DNA of 64,000 bases from assembly GCA_040877935.1 (NCBI GenBank), contig JBBDNB010000048.1, positions 124,001 to 188,000 of the forward strand, written 5' to 3'. Below, piece after piece: positions 6,202-42,096 of the stretch. The DNA comes from Chitinophagales bacterium. Lineage in GTDB: Bacteria; Bacteroidota; Bacteroidia; Chitinophagales; CAIOSU01. The stretch's first letter is position 1, and the number at the start of each line of letters is the position of its first letter. The translations under genes were made by a program, and so were the position numbers. A model generated the notes under the pieces. It was given only the letters and a program-made list of their open reading frames with translations, ran no database searches and had not been told where the DNA came from.

Positions 6202-6816
6202 TCAATATCTCCACCAATAATACAGTAGCTTTATGTACTCATTGTTGACATTGATCATGTCCTGTTCATTTTGCCACCAATAGGGAGGATCGTGTCTGCG
6301 TATATGTCCCCGCACTATAGTTTTTATACCCCGGTCTTTGAATTTTTCTTTAAAAGTTTGCTGAATTCTGCGCGTATGAAAAGCACTGCTTACAATGATC
6401 ACTGTTTTAAATCCCTGCTTTTGGCAGTAATCCAAAATGGCTGCTGATTCTTCAAAAGTGCTGCTCCCTTCAGGCAATATTTTAACATGCTGTTCGGGTA
6501 TTTGCATGCTGTGGATCAAAAAATGTTTGATCAGCTCAGATTCTTTGTAATTAAATCCCAGTGCACGAAGGTCTTGCGGTACCACTGAGCCCATGCAAAT
6601 AATAGTATCGGAGTAGCCCTGAAAATAAATATCCATTGCTGCCATACCGCGTTCGAATGGCCCTCCGGACAACACAAAAATAGCATCGGATTTTTCTAAG
6701 GGATCTTCGGCAATCAGGTAATTGCCGGTAGCATAAAGAATTTGAAATTTGAAAAGGTAAGCAGATAGAGGCAACAGGCTTATAAACAGAATTGCTATAA
6801 GTCCTTTCTTTTTCAT
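6202..6816 (-). CDS. YdcF/ElyC/SanA-family DUF218 protein
   Basis: This 204-residue protein has an N-terminal signal anchor (about residues 4-20) followed by a DUF218 domain. Recognisable DUF218 features are DAIFVLSGGPFERG at the start, the central PEGSSTFEESAAI segment and VIIVSSAFHTRRI near the end. Members such as SanA and ElyC act in envelope integrity or envelope polysaccharide metabolism, but no catalytic activity can be read from this sequence. The ATG lies at the edge of a 167-bp repeat (6814-6980) and overlaps the stop of a small frame inside that repeat (ATGA), so its translation may be coupled to it. Confidence 0.85.
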   Translation of the reverse strand: MKKKGLIAILFISLLPLSAYLFKFQILYATGNYLIAEDPLEKSDAIFVLSGGPFERGMAAMDIYFQGYSDTIICMGSVVPQDLRALGFNYKESELIKHFLIHSMQIPEQHVKILPEGSSTFEESAAILDYCQKQGFKTVIIVSSAFHTRRIQQTFKEKFKDRGIKTIVRGHIRRHDPPYWWQNEQDMINVNNEYIKLLYYWWRY

Positions 6817-6938
6817 GTGTTAAAAATTTTTCTGCGAGTACCAAAAATGCAGAAAAAATTTTGCACACATGCCTGCCCGAACTGGGACAGGCGGGGAACC
6901 GCTTCGCTCTCACATGAATTTATTTTAGTCATCCTCAT
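6813..6938 (-). CDS. Possible 41-codon leader peptide inside intergenic repeat (copy 1)
   Basis: An ATG-initiated frame of 41 codons (begins MRMTKINSCESEAVPRL) fills most of the intergenic repeat. Its TGA overlaps the ATG of the YdcF-like gene. The second copy of the repeat at 38834-38965 keeps the same frame open, with a 6-base in-frame length difference and the same ATGA overlap with tolC. Expression is unproven and the repeat may be non-coding. The case rests only on the conserved frame and overlap. Confidence 0.25.
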   Translation of the reverse strand: MRMTKINSCESEAVPRLSQFGQACVQNFFCIFGTRRKIFNT

Positions 6939-6980
6939 GTGTGAAGTTTTTGATTAAAAAAATTCATGTTCGTTTCATTT
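6814..6980 (-). repeat. Dispersed intergenic repeat A, copy 1
   Basis: This 167-bp segment is nearly the same as 38835-39007. It runs from the start codon of the YdcF-like gene back to the stop codon of the LspA fusion, so the whole gap between the two genes is repeat. It contains a G+C-rich stem-loop (CCGCCTG ... CGGGCAGG) in which the loop differs between copies. A short identical frame MNFFNQKLHT also occurs at its far end in both copies. Confidence 0.9.
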
Positions 6981-7945
6981 TAGTGACGAATTTCGAAATT
7001 GCTGAAATCTTCAGAAGCTTTATCCAGATTTTCTATAGTCACATTTTCCACTTCGGCATTTTCCGGCCCTTGTTTGCACCACTCTATCAACTGATCAATT
7101 TCTGTTTTTAATCCCAAAGCTTCAATAAATACTGTACCGCCTTCCAGGTTCTGAACATAGCCTTTTAATCCCAGTTCTGTTGCTTTATCCTGGGTTGATT
7201 TGCGAAAAAATACGCCCTGCACTTTTCCACTGATCTGAATAGTGACTGCTGTTTTTTCCATTGCTGCTTTTTCTTTTAGTTTCTTTTTTTCTTTTTCGCT
7301 CTCATCCTCAGCAAAAAAGGACTTTTGAAAAACAATGATGATAAAGACCCCTACTGTAATTGCTGCATCTGCAAAATTAAAAACCGGCCGGAAGAAAATA
7401 TAATATTCACCACCAAGAAAAGGCACCCAATCTGGTGCATATCCCTGTAATATAGGGAAGTAGAACATATCTACAACTTTGCCGTGAAAGTAATCGGAAT
7501 AGCCACCACCAGCTGGTAAAAATTCCGCTACCCTGTTGATGCTGTCAGAAAAGACAACACCGTAAAATACACTGTCGATGATATTGCCTATTGCTCCTGC
7601 CAAAACCAATGCAATGCTGTAAACCAATCCTTTGTGGATTTTGTCGCGAATAAGTGTATAGAGGTAAAAGCCAATAAGTGTTACGGCAACTATACGAAAA
7701 AGGCTCAATAGGAGTTTACCTGTTCCATCGCCAAAACTCATTCCGAAAGCCATGCCTTTGTTTTCGGTGAAATGTATCTTGGCCCATTCACCAAATAGCA
7801 CAAACTCCTGACCGAGGTACATATTGGTTTTGATCCAGATTTTAATAACCTGATCAATCAGTACTATAGCCAGAATTAAAGTTACCGGTTTGAGGTATTG
7901 TTTCAATGCTTTGCTAGTTTTTATTCTGAGCATTTTTAGCTTCAA
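6980..7945 (-). CDS. lspA: Lipoprotein signal peptidase (LspA) fused to acylphosphatase
   Basis: Residues 1-~212 form prolipoprotein signal peptidase II, the aspartic protease of the inner membrane that cleaves prolipoproteins. Four membrane segments are visible, with the two catalytic aspartates in GNIIDS (D124) and FNFADAAIT (D193); the long insert between them is usual in Bacteroidota. After a charged linker (SEKEKKKLKEKAAMEK), residues ~229-321 are a complete acylphosphatase: GKVQGVFFR gives the phosphate loop and catalytic R248, and N266 is the catalytic Asn. There is no stop or frameshift between the parts. An internal ATG (M229) could also produce free acylphosphatase. The start overlaps the DksA-like gene by 32 bases; a second ATG 4 codons on is possible. 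Confidence 0.93.
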   Translation of the reverse strand: MKLKMLRIKTSKALKQYLKPVTLILAIVLIDQVIKIWIKTNMYLGQEFVLFGEWAKIHFTENKGMAFGMSFGDGTGKLLLSLFRIVAVTLIGFYLYTLIRDKIHKGLVYSIALVLAGAIGNIIDSVFYGVVFSDSINRVAEFLPAGGGYSDYFHGKVVDMFYFPILQGYAPDWVPFLGGEYYIFFRPVFNFADAAITVGVFIIIVFQKSFFAEDESEKEKKKLKEKAAMEKTAVTIQISGKVQGVFFRKSTQDKATELGLKGYVQNLEGGTVFIEALGLKTEIDQLIEWCKQGPENAEVENVTIENLDKASEDFSNFEIRH

Positions 7946-25176: not shown

Positions 25177-25273
25177 TTACAATTTAATTTTTCATTAAGC
25201 CATGCTTATAGTATATTATATATGACTAGCTATCGATAGTTGTGCAAGCATGATAAATGCTTTTTTTAATTTC

Positions 25274-25468
25274 CAAGATTGATAAAGATAAAAATTATTA
25301 TAAATTATCAGATGGATTTTGGTGCTTAGGAGTAGGAAATCTTCTAGTGTCAAGTCAAATAATAACAAGGGATGGCAAATAAATAGTGTCAAGGTTTACA
25401 ACCGTTTTCAAACCCGGCATTTCTACTGCCCGCCAGAATGAATTCTTTCGGGCGGGCGCTCAATGACC
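25274..25468. repeat. 195-bp direct repeat R2 downstream of fic
   Basis: The segment matches 27171-27367 at nearly nine bases in ten by eye, in the same orientation. It ends in a stem-loop of GCCCGCC ... GGGCGGGC around an AGAATGAATTCT core. The two copies bracket the Fic gene. Confidence 0.88.
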
Positions 25469-27052: not shown

Positions 27053-27170
27053 TTTTTTAAGTTTTGTTTTACCGTTAGAACTGAGCTTTTGATGATTTTT
27101 TAAAGTTCTATCGCATTTTCATTTATACTTTCAAATTCACTTTGTATAATAAATTCTGTTTTCATCTTTT

Positions 27171-27367
27171 CAAGATTGATGAAGATAAAAAATATTATAA
27201 ATTATCAGATGGATTTTGGTGCTTAGGAATAGAAAATCTTCTAGTGTCAAGTCAAATAACAAACAAGGGATGGCAAATTAAATAGCTGCAATGATTACCA
27301 CCGTTTTCAATCCCGGCATTTCGACTTCCCGCCAGAATGAATTCTTTCGAGCTGGCGCTCAATGTCC
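27171..27367. repeat. 197-bp direct repeat R1 upstream of fic
   Basis: This is the partner of 25274-25468. The terminal stem-loop is altered here (GCCAG ... CTGGC arms in place of the GCCCGCC arms) but the EcoRI-like core GAATGAATTC is kept. Confidence 0.88.
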
Positions 27368-33790: not shown

Positions 33791-33846
33791 TATCACCACA
33801 CTCGTTCGCTATGCTACAAATGCCAGGCGGTAAACGAGTGAGTGGG
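33791..33846. repeat. Hairpin repeat C, copy 1
   Basis: This ~56-bp element has arms CACTCGTT and AACGAGTG around a conserved core (CGCTATGCTACAAATG). Related copies are at 35444-35500 and 36351-36405, each between the stop of one - strand gene and the start of the next. Confidence 0.85.
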
Positions 33847-35443: not shown

Positions 35444-35500
35444 TCACCGCACTCGTTCGCTATGCTACAAATGTCAAGCGGCAAACGAGCGTGAACGGGG
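35444..35500. repeat. Hairpin repeat C, copy 2
   Basis: The copy shares CACTCGTTCGCTATGCTACA with copy 1. The right arm is changed to AACGAGCG. Confidence 0.85.
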
Positions 35501-36350: not shown

Positions 36351-36405
36351 CACACCGCACTCGTTCGCCATGCTGCAAATGCCGGGCTACAAACGAGTGA
36401 GTGGA
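36351..36405. repeat. Hairpin repeat C, copy 3
   Basis: The element CACTCGTTCGCCATGCTGCAA ... AAACGAGTGAGTGG directly follows the stop of the 89-residue gene. Next to it (36278-36350) is a larger imperfect stem-loop with CACTGGC and GCCAGTG arms nested in AACACAT and ATGTGT. Confidence 0.85.
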
Positions 36406-37508: not shown

Positions 37509-38837
37509 TTAAGGCGCAGCGCTTTCTTCCAGTAATTTTCCGCTTAAGCGCAACAGTACAGTCTCGGCCAGTTTGGCTCGGTAGCGGCTATTGATGTATC
37601 GGTTTCTGGCCTCTAGCAAATTGCTCTGCACATTTCTAAAATCTATGCCAGAAATCAGGCCGTTTTTGTAGGTCTCATAGGCCAGTTCCAGGTTTTCCGC
37701 TGCCGATTGTATATTTTCCTGCTCCAATTCGGCAATTTCCCTACTGGAACTGTAGTTTTTATAGGCTTTCCACAGTTCGCTGTTCAGTTCCAACTCCAGA
37801 TTTTCGCGCATCAACTGGCTGTTTTCCACCGTAATCCGCGCATTTTTTATTTGTTGGTTCAGTTGCAAACCATTGAACAGATTCACACTGGCATTGAGTC
37901 CGTAGTAGGGGCCAAAAGATTGACTGGTGGTCAAAAATCCGGCATCGGAACTTTGCTGTGCGTAATCGTATCCACCCCTAAAATTCAAAACGGGCGATCT
38001 TTGTCTTTTGAAATTTTTCAATTGATACAGCGCAATTTCCCTTTCCGTATCCTGTACTTTCAAATTGGTGTTTTCAGCTTCCAGCGCCATTTTCAATGGG
38101 CCGTATTCCAGGGCTGCATTTAAAGAAATGGTATCGTGAACAGGCAGGATTTCCGTATCCACACTTCGGCTCAGCAAAGTATTCAAATTTGACTGCGCAA
38201 TGGACAATATTTCATTCAATTCTATCAATGCAGATCGATCTGCATTCCAATCTACACGCGCTTGCAGGTATTCCACTTTTGAGCTGCTGCCCGCCTCCAA
38301 TCGCAATTCGGCCAAGTCCATCCTTTCTTTTGAAAGGGCAATGATTTCCTCGGTACTGCGAATATTTTCCTTGATGCGAATGATTTCATAATACAGACTG
38401 ATCACATCCTGAATGGTATTTTCCACTTCCAGCCGAGCTTCCAATGCGCCCTTTGCCTCAAAGCTTTTCAACTGTTTGTAGGTGGTAAACATTTTCAGGC
38501 CATCGAATAGCGTCCAGTTCATTTCGGCCACGCCACCAAATTGAGCGCTTTTTGCACTGGGGTTGGTGTTTTCGTCTCCACTTAAAAATTGCTGTTGGAT
38601 ATTATTCACGCTATTGTTCCAATTTCCGCTCAGATCAAGGGAGGGCAGCATTCCCGCATTTCCAACATGGGCATTATTGCTTTCTATGGCCGCATTGTTC
38701 CTGGCAATTTTAATTTGGTAATTGTTTTCCAAAGCCAATTCAATTACCTGCTCCAAGCTCAATTTTTCTTGGGCCAATACTTGAAAATTCGCCAGCAGCA
38801 AAAAAGCGATAAATGAGGTAAGCAGCGTATTGTTCAT
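37509..38837 (-). CDS. TolC-family outer-membrane efflux protein
   Basis: Starting at the ATG at 38837 gives 442 residues with a signal peptide (about 1-22, ending VLAQ). Two repeated OEP helical-barrel units are visible, with LSLEQVIELALENNYQIKIARNNAAIESN at the first and YGPLKMALEAENTNLKVQDTEREIAL at the second, plus barrel strands near YGLNASVNLFNGLQL. It forms the outer-membrane channel of the tripartite pump coded upstream. The start codon lies at the edge of repeat A copy 2, so it is separated from the pump gene by that repeat. Confidence 0.93.
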   Translation of the reverse strand: MNNTLLTSFIAFLLLANFQVLAQEKLSLEQVIELALENNYQIKIARNNAAIESNNAHVGNAGMLPSLDLSGNWNNSVNNIQQQFLSGDENTNPSAKSAQFGGVAEMNWTLFDGLKMFTTYKQLKSFEAKGALEARLEVENTIQDVISLYYEIIRIKENIRSTEEIIALSKERMDLAELRLEAGSSSKVEYLQARVDWNADRSALIELNEILSIAQSNLNTLLSRSVDTEILPVHDTISLNAALEYGPLKMALEAENTNLKVQDTEREIALYQLKNFKRQRSPVLNFRGGYDYAQQSSDAGFLTTSQSFGPYYGLNASVNLFNGLQLNQQIKNARITVENSQLMRENLELELNSELWKAYKNYSSSREIAELEQENIQSAAENLELAYETYKNGLISGIDFRNVQSNLLEARNRYINSRYRAKLAETVLLRLSGKLLEESAAP

Positions 38838-38965
38838 GTGTTTAAAATTTTTACTACGGCTCCCAAAATGCAGAAAAATTTCTGCACACATGCCTGCCCG
38901 ACCAAATGGCCATTCAGGCGGGGAACCGCTTCGCTCTCACATGAATTTATTTTAATCATCCTCAT
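38834..38965 (-). CDS. Possible 43-codon leader peptide inside intergenic repeat (copy 2)
   Basis: This ATG frame (begins MRMIKINSCESEAVPRL) is the counterpart of 6813-6938. It is open throughout, and its TGA overlaps the ATG of tolC. Relative to copy 1 it has a 6-base in-frame insertion and several amino acid changes. There is no proof of translation. Confidence 0.25.
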   Translation of the reverse strand: MRMIKINSCESEAVPRLNGHLVGQACVQKFFCILGAVVKILNT

Positions 38966-39007
38966 GTGTGAAGTTTTTGATTAAAAAAATTCATGTTCGT
39001 TTCATTT
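38835..39007 (-). repeat. Dispersed intergenic repeat A, copy 2
   Basis: This 173-bp segment is nearly identical to 6814-6980. It fills the gap between the RND pump stop and the tolC start. Differences cluster in the stem-loop loop and near the tolC start. Confidence 0.9.
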
Positions 39008-39009
39008 GA

Positions 39010-42000
39010 TTAAGCATTTTCGTTTTCCAATTCATCAGCATCCAAATTAGTCACTTCCTTATCTGCCTCTGAGATATAGGAGTACATGGCCGGAATCACA
39101 AAAAGGGTGAGCAATGAGGCAAAAGTCAATCCGCCAATGATGGCCACTCCCATTGATACCCGGGATTCTGAACCCGCACCCAATGCCAATGCAATGGGCA
39201 ATGTGCCCAGAATAGTCGAGAGGCTGGTCATTAAAATGGGGCGGAAACGAGCAGCGGAAGCATCTTTAATGGCTTCCATCCTACTTAGGCCCGCAGCTTT
39301 ACGCTGATTGGCAAATTCAACGATCAGAATGCCGTTTTTACTCACCAAACCGACCAACATAATCATTCCTATTTGACTGAAAATATTGAGCGATTCGTGA
39401 TAAAACCAAAGCGTAAGCATGGCTCCTGCCAATGCCAAAGGAACGGTAAACATAATGATCAAGGGATCCCTGAAACTTTCAAACTGTGCTGCCAATACCA
39501 AATAAATCAGCACCAAAGCCAGTAAAAAAGCAAATATCAAACTGGAAGAGCTTTCTGCAAAATCCTTGGATTCGCCAGCCAATGCCGTACTGAAATTATC
39601 ATTTAAAACCTCTGCCGCAATGGCATCCATTTCCTCTATACCATCGCTCAGGGTATAGCCTTTGTTCAAAGCTGCGGAAACTGTGGCCGAAACATATCTA
39701 TTGTAGCGATAAAGCTGCGGGGGCGTAACGGTCTCCTCTAATTGCACAAAATTATCCAACTGTACCATTTCGCCTTTGGCACTGCGCACATACAGCGATT
39801 TCAAATCCAATGGATCGTTGCGGTTTTCCCGATTGACTTGGCCGATGACCTGGTATTGTTTTCCATTCATAATGAAATAGCCAAAACGCTGCCCACTGAA
39901 TGCCAAAAGCAGGGTTTCGGAAATGTCCTTTACCGAGACACCGATATTTCTGGCTTTTTCACGGTCAATGCTCACCTGGATTTCCGGTTTGTTGAATTGC
40001 AAATCAACATCGACAAAGCCAAATACATCAGACTTATTGGCGGCCTCTAAAAATGGCGGGATTTTTTCTTTCAGCTCGTCCAAATTGGGTGCTTGAAGCA
40101 CATACTGCACGGGCAATCCACCAAATTTACTGCCAATAGTTGGTTCTTGGGAAACATAGGTGGTGGCCTCTGGCATCTGTTTTACAATTCCACTCAACTC
40201 GTTTGCTATCTCCTGCTGACTGCGCTTTCTATCAGAGGCATCTACCAATTTTAAACGAACAAAACCGGAATTGATCGAAGTAGAAGCTCCAAAACCTGGA
40301 GAGGTAACGGAAATAATGGCTTCACTTTCAGGCACCTCCTCCTGAATGGTAGCTACCAATTCGGTCATAAACCGATCCATATAATCAAATGTAGCGCCCT
40401 CTTGTGCCTTGGAAAACAATCGCAAACTTCCACGATCTTCTAGGGGTGCCAATTCAGAAGGCAATGTGAAAGCGAAAACCGCAATCAAAGCACCGGAAAT
40501 CAAAATCACCACAAATGCCAGCCATCTTTTTTCCATAAAACCACTGAGGGCATTGCGGTACCATTCATTTAATTTCAAAAAACCAGGCTCGGTCAAATTG
40601 TAAAAGGCATTTTGTTTCTTCCTTTTTTTCAATAATCTGCTGCTCAACATGGGCGTAAGCGTCAATGCCACAAAAGAGGAAATGACCACTGCACCTGCCA
40701 ATACTACTCCAAATTCGCGGAACAATCGACCAATGATTCCCTCCAGGAAAATTACGGGCAAAAACACGGCCACCAAGGAAATGGTAGTGGCTATTACAGC
40801 AAAGAATATTTCGGCAGCACCTTGAAGCCCCGCTTCTTTGGGATCCATGCCCTGTTCTATTTTCGTGTAAATATTTTCGAGCACCACAATGGCATCGTCC
40901 ACTACCAGGCCAATGGCCAAAACCAAGCCCAATAAGGTGAGTACATTGATGGAAAAATCTGAAATGTACATGACAAAGAAAGAACCAATCAAGGCGATGG
41001 GAATTACTGCCACGGGAATGATGGTGGTGCGCCAATCCCTTAAAAAGAAGAAAATCACCAGAATGACAAGGGCAAATGCCAAATAAATGGTCTGCTGCAC
41101 TTCACTGATGGAATCGCGAATGTATTTGGTGGTATCAAAGCCAATTCCGATTTCAATATCCTCGGGCAAGTTCTTTTTGATTTGCTCCAATCGAACATAA
41201 AATTCATCTGCAATTTCAATGTGATTGGAACCGGGCTGTGGAATAATGGCATTTCCCACCATAGGAATATTGTCCCTTTTCAAAATGGTGCGCAATTCCT
41301 CGGGACCCAATTCCGCTTTTCCTATATCCTTGAAATAAACCGTTCTGTTATCGGATTCGCGAATGATCATATTGTTGAATTCCTCGGTGGTGGTCAATCG
41401 GCCAAGTGTTCTTACCGTCAATTCAATATTATCGCCTTCTACCGAGCCAGAGGGCAATTCCAGATTTTGCTCCTCCAAGGCAATTTGCACATCCCTGGCA
41501 GTGACATCATTTGCCGCCATTTTTTGTGGATCGAGCCACAGGCGCATGGCGTATTTTTTCGAGCCCCAAATACGGATTTCACTCACCCCGTTGATGGTTT
41601 GCAATCGCTCCTTGAATGTTCGCTCTGCTATATCGGTCAATTCCAATAAAGACCTTTTTTCGCTTTTAATATTCAGGAAAATAATGGGACTGGAATCGGC
41701 ATCTGCCTTGGAAACAATCGGTGGATCGGCATCTTCGGGAATATTGCGCACCGCTCCCGAAACTTTGTCGCGCACATCATTGGCAGCAGTTTCCAAATCC
41801 ACTTCCAAATCAAACTCTACTTTGATGGTACTTCTTCCATCCCTGCTGGTGGAAGTCAAGGTTCGCACACCTGAAATTCCGTTGATGGCTTCTTCTAGCG
41901 GTTCAGTTATCTGCGATTCAATAATATCGGCATTGGCACCCACATAATTGGTGGTAACGGTTATCTCAGGCGGGTCAACACTTGGATATTCGCGCACGCC

Positions 42001-42096
42001 CAAATAAGTCAAGCCAATGATTCCAAACAGTACAATCACAATGGAAAATACCGTAGCCATTACCGGCCTGGATATGCTTAATGACGATAAACTCAT
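39010..42096 (-). CDS. RND efflux pump inner-membrane subunit (HAE1 family)
   Basis: The 1028-residue pump has the AcrB-like layout: one N-terminal membrane helix (about 10-30), a large periplasmic domain, helices 2-6 (about 333-530 with the ILVIFFFLRDWRTTIIP and GLVVDDAIVVLENIYTKIE motifs), a second periplasmic domain and the final helices (about 850-1010). The proton-relay aspartate pair of helix 4 is present in LVVDDAIVV. It uses proton flow to export hydrophobic toxic compounds through TolC. Its ATG overlaps the membrane fusion protein stop by 4 bases. Confidence 0.96.
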   Translation of the reverse strand: MSLSSLSISRPVMATVFSIVIVLFGIIGLTYLGVREYPSVDPPEITVTTNYVGANADIIESQITEPLEEAINGISGVRTLTSTSRDGRSTIKVEFDLEVDLETAANDVRDKVSGAVRNIPEDADPPIVSKADADSSPIIFLNIKSEKRSLLELTDIAERTFKERLQTINGVSEIRIWGSKKYAMRLWLDPQKMAANDVTARDVQIALEEQNLELPSGSVEGDNIELTVRTLGRLTTTEEFNNMIIRESDNRTVYFKDIGKAELGPEELRTILKRDNIPMVGNAIIPQPGSNHIEIADEFYVRLEQIKKNLPEDIEIGIGFDTTKYIRDSISEVQQTIYLAFALVILVIFFFLRDWRTTIIPVAVIPIALIGSFFVMYISDFSINVLTLLGLVLAIGLVVDDAIVVLENIYTKIEQGMDPKEAGLQGAAEIFFAVIATTISLVAVFLPVIFLEGIIGRLFREFGVVLAGAVVISSFVALTLTPMLSSRLLKKRKKQNAFYNLTEPGFLKLNEWYRNALSGFMEKRWLAFVVILISGALIAVFAFTLPSELAPLEDRGSLRLFSKAQEGATFDYMDRFMTELVATIQEEVPESEAIISVTSPGFGASTSINSGFVRLKLVDASDRKRSQQEIANELSGIVKQMPEATTYVSQEPTIGSKFGGLPVQYVLQAPNLDELKEKIPPFLEAANKSDVFGFVDVDLQFNKPEIQVSIDREKARNIGVSVKDISETLLLAFSGQRFGYFIMNGKQYQVIGQVNRENRNDPLDLKSLYVRSAKGEMVQLDNFVQLEETVTPPQLYRYNRYVSATVSAALNKGYTLSDGIEEMDAIAAEVLNDNFSTALAGESKDFAESSSSLIFAFLLALVLIYLVLAAQFESFRDPLIIMFTVPLALAGAMLTLWFYHESLNIFSQIGMIMLVGLVSKNGILIVEFANQRKAAGLSRMEAIKDASAARFRPILMTSLSTILGTLPIALALGAGSESRVSMGVAIIGGLTFASLLTLFVIPAMYSYISEADKEVTNLDADELENENA

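Follow-up and report, generated by a model that had tools for sequence, protein, structure and literature searches.

A repeated element between genes of the window

Two copies of an intergenic repeat, 89% identical and both on the minus strand, lie at positions 6813-6980 and 38834-39007 of the window, by which we mean the whole stretch of 64,000 nucleotides analyzed. Each copy separates two genes of the same strand, and the features recognized at the two sites are as follows.

6202-6816, minus strand: gene downstream of copy 1, DUF218/YdcF-like, beginning MKKKG at the right-hand ATGA of the element
6813-6978, minus strand: copy 1 of the element, 166 bp including the ATGA at both ends, 5' of the YdcF-like gene (genome search and alignment; covariance-model match of 155.5 bits)
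6813-6938, minus strand: 41-codon frame of copy 1, ending in the TGA of the ATGA, judged non-coding
6814-6871, minus strand: hairpin 2 of copy 1, whose 3' foot ACACATG holds the start codon of the next gene (alignment and covariation)
6872-6895, minus strand: nested palindromic insert of copy 1, CCCGCCTG..GGGCAGG, 24 bp (genome search and alignment)
6896-6909, minus strand: small conserved middle hairpin of copy 1, GAGCGAAGCGGTTC (folding and covariation)
6912-6969, minus strand: hairpin 1 of copy 1, CATGAATTT...AAATTCATG (folding and covariation)
6975-6978, minus strand: left ATGA of copy 1, marking the original start-codon position and opening the conserved left end ATGAAACGAACATGA (alignment and the G226/G061 empty site described below)
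6980-7945, minus strand: gene upstream of copy 1, a single ORF for LspA (signal peptidase II) followed by an acylphosphatase domain
37509-38837, minus strand: gene downstream of copy 2, outer membrane efflux protein (TolC/OEP), beginning MNNTLLTSF at the ATGA of the element
38834-39005, minus strand: copy 2 of the element, 172 bp including both ATGA, between the AcrB-type transporter gene and the TolC-like gene
38834-38965, minus strand: 43-codon frame of copy 2, judged non-coding
38835-38892, minus strand: hairpin 2 of copy 2, which includes the start codon of tolC (38835-38837)
38893-38922, minus strand: nested palindromic insert of copy 2, 30 bp (alignment)
38939-38996, minus strand: hairpin 1 of copy 2 (folding and covariation)
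39010-42096, minus strand: gene upstream of copy 2, AcrB/AcrD/AcrF family transporter

The window also holds another palindromic repeat in three copies (33794-33845, 35445-35496 and 36353-36404; CACCRCACTCGTTCGCYATGCTRCAAATG..CAAACGAG) and a direct duplication of ~200 bp, at 25270-25468 and 27167-27367, about 1.9 kb apart.

An earlier note on this DNA had described a ~170-bp repeat occurring twice. Both of these copies are present, but the genome as a whole (4.03 Mb in 63 contigs) contains 12 full ones, a count with which a covariance-model search agrees. The same model found at least 8 further copies of a shorter sister form (102-137 bp) outside the window, at C43:258566, C43:125930, C48:119271, C48:237363, C1:41311, C8:50913, C8:102322 and C27:89997; this form has the left end ATGAAACGAACATG and the hairpin 2 foot of the element, with a different hairpin 1 (CAAAAAAATTTG). 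Across the family, the element measures ~100-190 bp. The repeat had also been said to fill exactly the space from the upstream stop codon to the downstream ATG, which describes the window copies well (1-4 nt to spare), but over the copies as a whole the distance from the upstream stop codon to the element is 1-217 nt.

In the orientation of the downstream gene, the element consists of ATGA-AACGARCATGA, hairpin 1, the small middle hairpin, and hairpin 2, the 3' foot of which is the start codon ATGA. Copies in the own genome start with ATGAAACGA[A/G]CATG, the first bases being missing in one of them, and finish with AAAC[A/G]NATGA. Both RNA and DNA folding return the two long hairpins and the small middle one, with a z-score of about -6.7. 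In an alignment of 73 copies, 88.5% of the cells in paired columns pair, two-sided changes occur in 36 of 49 pairs, and 355 cells are compensated, vs 121 after shuffling and no more than 70 when the partners are slid; these pair counts are inflated and part of the excess is built in, given that the alignment was fitted to the structure of the model. The foot of hairpin 2 covaries together with the start codon itself, being found as CATGTGT/ACACATG, CATCTGT/ACAGATG, CATACGT/ACGTATG, CATATGT/ACATATG, CATTTGT/ACAAATG, CATTCGT/ACGAATG, CATAGGT/ACCTATG and CATCCGT/ACGGATG, and the TTG start of the copy before SbcD goes with CAA at this foot. With a few fixed G-T columns set aside, G-T and A-C cells in paired columns are nearly balanced (76 vs 68), so the sequences do not tell whether the fold works on RNA or on DNA, or on which strand.

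The 6-bp length difference between the window copies, described previously as an in-frame indel, is real but belongs to the nested palindrome (24 vs 30 bp). Palindromes of this CCTGCC..GGCAGG type are absent from 7 of the 12 own-genome copies and 28 bp long in others. They sit at two different points of the element (in the window, in L008 and in many copies of the genome G320) and also occur alone elsewhere in the genome; they are a second, REP-like repeat living within the element.

Gene starts at the right end of the element

In all 12 full copies of the own genome, a real gene starts at the final ATG of the element (TTG in one case). With the sister form, for which 7 of the 8 copies read end in this way, the start codon of a same-strand gene forms the exact end of 19 of 20 copies. 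The claim of the earlier note that the repeat is placed exactly at gene starts thus holds for 12/12 own copies and extends over many genera; no full copy in this genome lies far from a start codon. The 12 downstream genes encode a YdcF/DUF218 protein, TolC, a 451-aa membrane protein, an NAD epimerase, a 133-aa protein, a 75-aa protein, AroA, a dUTPase, a secreted protein of 501+ aa, PorP/SprF, KdsB and SbcD, the last assigned from its N-terminus KILHTSDWHLGK.

All 12 copies precede starts of the form [A/T]TGAA. In the own genome, ATGAA opens only 25% of called genes, and of 797 ATGAA sites that fall outside called genes in 1.17 Mb sampled as stretches, 256 are gene starts, approximate values that come from a home-made gene caller. 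If the element could use each of these 797 sites equally, 12 out of 12 at such gene starts would have p ~1e-6, and a chance origin of the placement is excluded. The preference extends beyond the start codon: on the gene side, the ATGA is followed by A in 98 of 101 cases and then by a second A in 89 of 101, vs 60% and 46% for ATGA starts in general.

The left end remains ATGAAA where the right end reads ATGAAC or ATGAAT. Because the left side is constant while the gene side varies, the left copy of ATGAAA is part of the element rather than a true duplication. Bases outside the ATGA are unlike between the two sides in 53 of 82 non-tandem copies, and in tandem copies one ATGA is common to neighboring units. 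In well-formed gene pairs, the upstream stop codon never lies past the left ATGA; in L007, L011 and L101 it is the TGA, or a mutated TAA, of the left ATGA itself.

The genes behind the element are unrelated and include AroA, KdsB, dUTPase, TolC, SbcD, rpmH and MnmA; 73 downstream proteins matched 98 Pfam families, none of them dominant. This does not support the suggestion that the repeat is placed before envelope genes, and it argues against both an envelope regulon and a riboswitch. Start codons are favored as the insertion site without being exclusive, since about 11 of 25 G320 copies and one sister-form copy of the own genome end without a clear gene start.

Empty site and distribution of the element

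In the genome G226, a FecR-like gene and a TonB-type receptor gene are separated by the element. Two congeners, G061 and G184, share this gene order without an element before the orthologous receptor gene, and in the closer one the empty site reads straight through the start codon as AAG/ATGAAA (a slash marks the junction). Around this point, G061 reads ...TTTAAAAAGTAGAAG/ATGAAATTAATT and G226 ...TTTAAAAAGATGAAG/ATGAAACG...ACACAG/ATGAAATTAATT; over a fuller stretch, TAATTTAAAAAGTAGAAG/ATGAAATTAATTAAACTT in G061 corresponds to TAATTTAAAAAGATGAAG/ATGAAACGAGCATGA...TTTTACACAG/ATGAAATTAATTAAATTT in G226. Since the site of the closer congener is uninterrupted, the element is an insertion, and the comparison places host sequence up to the base before the left ATGA, the gene resuming at the right ATGA. 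A directly alignable empty site was obtained at this single locus; at the flippase-dut gene pair, relatives of the own genome lack the element. Together with the 12 own-genome copies and the occurrence in many genera, the empty site strongly supports the description of the repeat as mobile.

In the copies of G320 (L104-L146), any base (G, C, T or A) can precede the right ATG although the element is otherwise conserved and the hairpin partner of this base is mostly T, a freedom that is unexplained by simple copying. The idea drawn from it, insertion one base before the ATG, is disfavored by the empty site and by the upstream stop codons that use the left TGA.

We searched relatives with a covariance model built from the 12 own copies. 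A DNA search of six available members of the same family gave no copy of the element, and the model detected copies in other families of the order, namely in G198, G226, G308 and G320 (Saprospiraceae MAG ALOHA_ZT_62). A clear gene start forms the end of every copy in G308, G198 and G226 and of about 14 of the 25 in G320, the genes including rpmH and a response regulator. An exact-pattern scan of 84,980 genomes returned at least 120 stretches, and nearly all of the matches listed come from Bacteroidota: Saprospiraceae, Flavobacteriaceae (Galbibacter, Croceivirga, Ulvibacterium, Sinomicrobium), Prolixibacteraceae, Bacteroidales, Crocinitomicaceae and Chitinophagales, along with one Methanohalobium MAG that is possibly mis-binned. 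The pattern fixes the left end only, and the 80 loci of this collection carry its exact-pattern bias; at 48 of the 69 right ends resolvable among the matches listed, the sequence continues into an ORF that either has at least 50 aa or runs off the locus. No plasmid or phage sequence matched (PLSDB, INPHARED, IMG/VR), and spread by such carriers was rejected.

Mobilization, alternative readings and meaning

Taken together, we consider it probable, at about 0.72, that the repeat belongs to a Bacteroidota family of non-autonomous palindromic mobile elements of ~100-190 bp that integrate at ATGAA(A), overwhelmingly where it serves as a start codon, and likely through a single-stranded DNA type of transposition. 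The element would bring its own ATGA at one end, and insertion 3' of an ATGA target would rebuild ATGA at the right end, giving host 5'UTR-ATGA-[element]-ATGA-gene. An upstream gene overlapping the target would keep its TGA stop and the downstream gene would regain its ATG.

Single-strand transposition, established for IS608 and ISDra2, is the comparison for this mechanism, because the anatomy and junctions of the ends fit the IS200/IS605 layout: the left end would comprise the cleavage site ATGA, a guide CAT and hairpin 1, and the right end a guide CAT, hairpin 2 and the cleavage site ATGA. CAT at both hairpin feet can pair with ATG, and it is also part of the stems. By analogy, a Y1 HUH transposase of the IS200/IS605 or REP type may move the element in trans. 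More tentatively, an ATGAA used as start codon may be a safe target in which neither neighbor is damaged, leading to enrichment; intergenic ATGAA sites away from starts outnumber those at starts about twofold, yet are rarely used. Single-stranded DNA exposed at transcribed gene starts might, as a guess, be the preferred target.

No transposase was found inside the element or reproducibly beside it, nor was an autonomous version found. Y1 genes are present in all five carrier genomes tested (the own genome, G320, G308, G198 and G226), but none of these loci is flanked by or carries a copy, and a linked Y1 transposase was rejected on this ground. The own genome encodes RAYT-like Y1 proteins with a resemblance to the subclass 2.6 motif (NHIH, YIHQNP), G198, G308 and G226 have partial ORFs of this kind, and subclass-1.2-like Y1 proteins are present in G226 and G308. 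Subclass 2.6 of the Bacteroidetes RAYTs has been described as having 'atypical secondary structures' (PMC6006769). Two further loci of the own genome, L039 (C12) and L040 (C55), have Y1_Tnp Pfam matches in frame within long ORFs resembling restriction-modification enzymes.

Among known systems, PATEs and IS200/IS605 ends share with the element a hairpin near each end, a short fixed host motif at the insertion point and the lack of inverted terminal repeats and of true target duplication, and the triplet beside each hairpin of the element is a possible counterpart of their guides. The element has hairpins near both ends and a precise empty site next to an ATGAA motif without duplication, as PATEs do; it differs from them in targeting ATGAA mainly as a start codon, in a hairpin 2 that swallows the right site, and in that no linked TnpA/TnpB was found. 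REP/REPIN sequences with TnpA-REP (RAYT) are likewise palindromic, intergenic and multi-copy, but REPs are defined as palindromes of 20-40 bp whose foot bears a GTAG or CGTC tag (PMC3733652). Alignment of the element shows no such tag, and the element has a fixed orientation and gene junction and two unlike hairpins over ~140 bp. Moreover, the RAYT-like Y1 gene of the own genome (L038, C43:40320) lies amid other palindromes, of the CGTAGC type, e.g. GTTCGTAGCAAGGGTGCTACGAAC. MITEs (ERIC, Correia/NEMIS, RUP) resemble the element in being short, non-autonomous, foldable, situated between genes and able to join mRNAs. Unlike them, it inserts at start codons and has neither variable target duplication, no host-copied target-site duplication having been found, nor terminal inverted repeats: its left end ATGAAACGAACATGAATTT does not match the reverse complement of its right end TCATCTGTTTAAAATTTTT beyond CAT.

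An alternative, which we regard as unlikely, is that IS110-family (bridge-RNA) recombinases mobilize the element as their own non-coding end. IS110 genes directly follow four G320 copies (L115, L118, L120 and L128), in some cases with ~65 nt between that part-match the element. However, the three IS110 copies of the own genome that were searched lack the element, PF01548 was not matched in the carriers G308 or G198, and the flanks left of the ATGA vary, unlike a bridge-RNA target. The copies, at 100-190 bp, contain no gene and hence no DEDD recombinase, and IS110 adjoins these four G320 copies only, junctions that are explained equally well if the element is an IS110 target; by analogy, they appear to resemble the targeting of REPs by IS110 more than ownership. 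The transposase genes in question are L148 (G320:C35), L147 (G320:C74), L149 (G320:C135) and L150 (G320:C160). In C35, AAAATCATATACAGAT is found on both sides of IS110, the far side being the start of rdgB, as if IS110 targeted the right end of the element.

We likewise regard as unlikely a cis-regulatory RNA leader, similar to a thermosensor or a riboswitch, in which hairpin 2 would conceal the start codon and which many genes would have acquired for common control. The strong covariation that includes the start codon, the fold z-score and the fixed sense orientation and position would all suit such a leader, but the downstream genes share no function, near-identical copies precede unrelated genes while congeners lack the element, and Rfam gave no match. 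The Bacteroidota -7 box TAnnTTTG is not enriched inside the element, which also speaks against this reading; a mobile promoter was rejected for the same reason. A regulatory effect after insertion is possible and compatible with mobility. Very unlikely, in our view, is a substrate of a site-specific tyrosine or serine recombinase with ATGA(AA) as core, like a minimal integrative element: the ATGAAA core at both ends, the precise insertion and the tandem arrays with a common core fit this, but the core is just 4-6 bp, the host flanks lack arm homology and no recombinase is linked to the element.

The earlier note had proposed a translational-coupling leader on the basis of a conserved frame of 41 or 43 codons, in which case a ribosome on the ~33-43-codon frame would melt hairpin 2 and reinitiate at the ATGA, possibly by way of a chain of ATGA-linked short ORFs (MKR[TAV]-stop, MNFFNQKLHT-stop, then the long frame). 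The frame does exist in both window copies, an ATG-begun ORF of at least 33 codons ends at the ATGA of the gene in 7 of the 12 own copies, the start codon is in a stem, and most copies have the 4-codon frame MKR[TAV]-stop from the left ATG. However, the long frame is not kept in most copies at large, as had been expected: it is broken freely, by indels or stops, in 5 of the 12 (L003, L005, L008, L011 and L012), and in other genomes only few copies have it, most lacking the ATG. Fewer nonsynonymous than synonymous changes had also been predicted, and the opposite was found among five intact copies (53 vs 10 pairwise codon differences; variable sites at codon positions 1/2/3 of 2/8/5, thus mostly position 2). 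The short frame overlies DNA that is conserved in any event, being a hairpin foot and the end of the element. Coupled gene pairs with ATGA overlaps share the ATGA junction and the start codon in a stem, but the element lacks a conserved upstream frame and its ATGA is an insertion target. The long frame appears, from these sequence comparisons, to be a non-coding by-product of a sequence selected for structure, and the coupling leader is highly improbable.

Returning to a mobile element inserted at start codons, the location of the start codon within hairpin 2 in the folding model implies that insertion probably alters the translation of the downstream gene. A bolder form of this reading is that the elements constitute a phylum-wide class whose integration machinery seeks and rebuilds start codons, giving unrelated genes, including essential ones, a common foldable leader that hides the start and changes translation; we consider this possible, though doubtful. 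We found no description of the element in the literature searched, which covered little subscription literature. To our knowledge, no known mobile element has gene start codons as its main, regenerated insertion site.

If the machinery sets the start-codon bias, the family would represent a new kind of target choice, which might operate through the single-stranded DNA of transcribed gene starts, and would provide a natural tool to install 5' leaders. The family accounts for many puzzling repeats between genes and for odd N-terminal extensions in the annotation of Bacteroidota genomes, e.g. the overlong tolC ORF of the window. Even if selection sets the bias, the translation starts of essential genes would have been rewired across a major phylum, and the element family is a natural experiment on start-codon sequestration.
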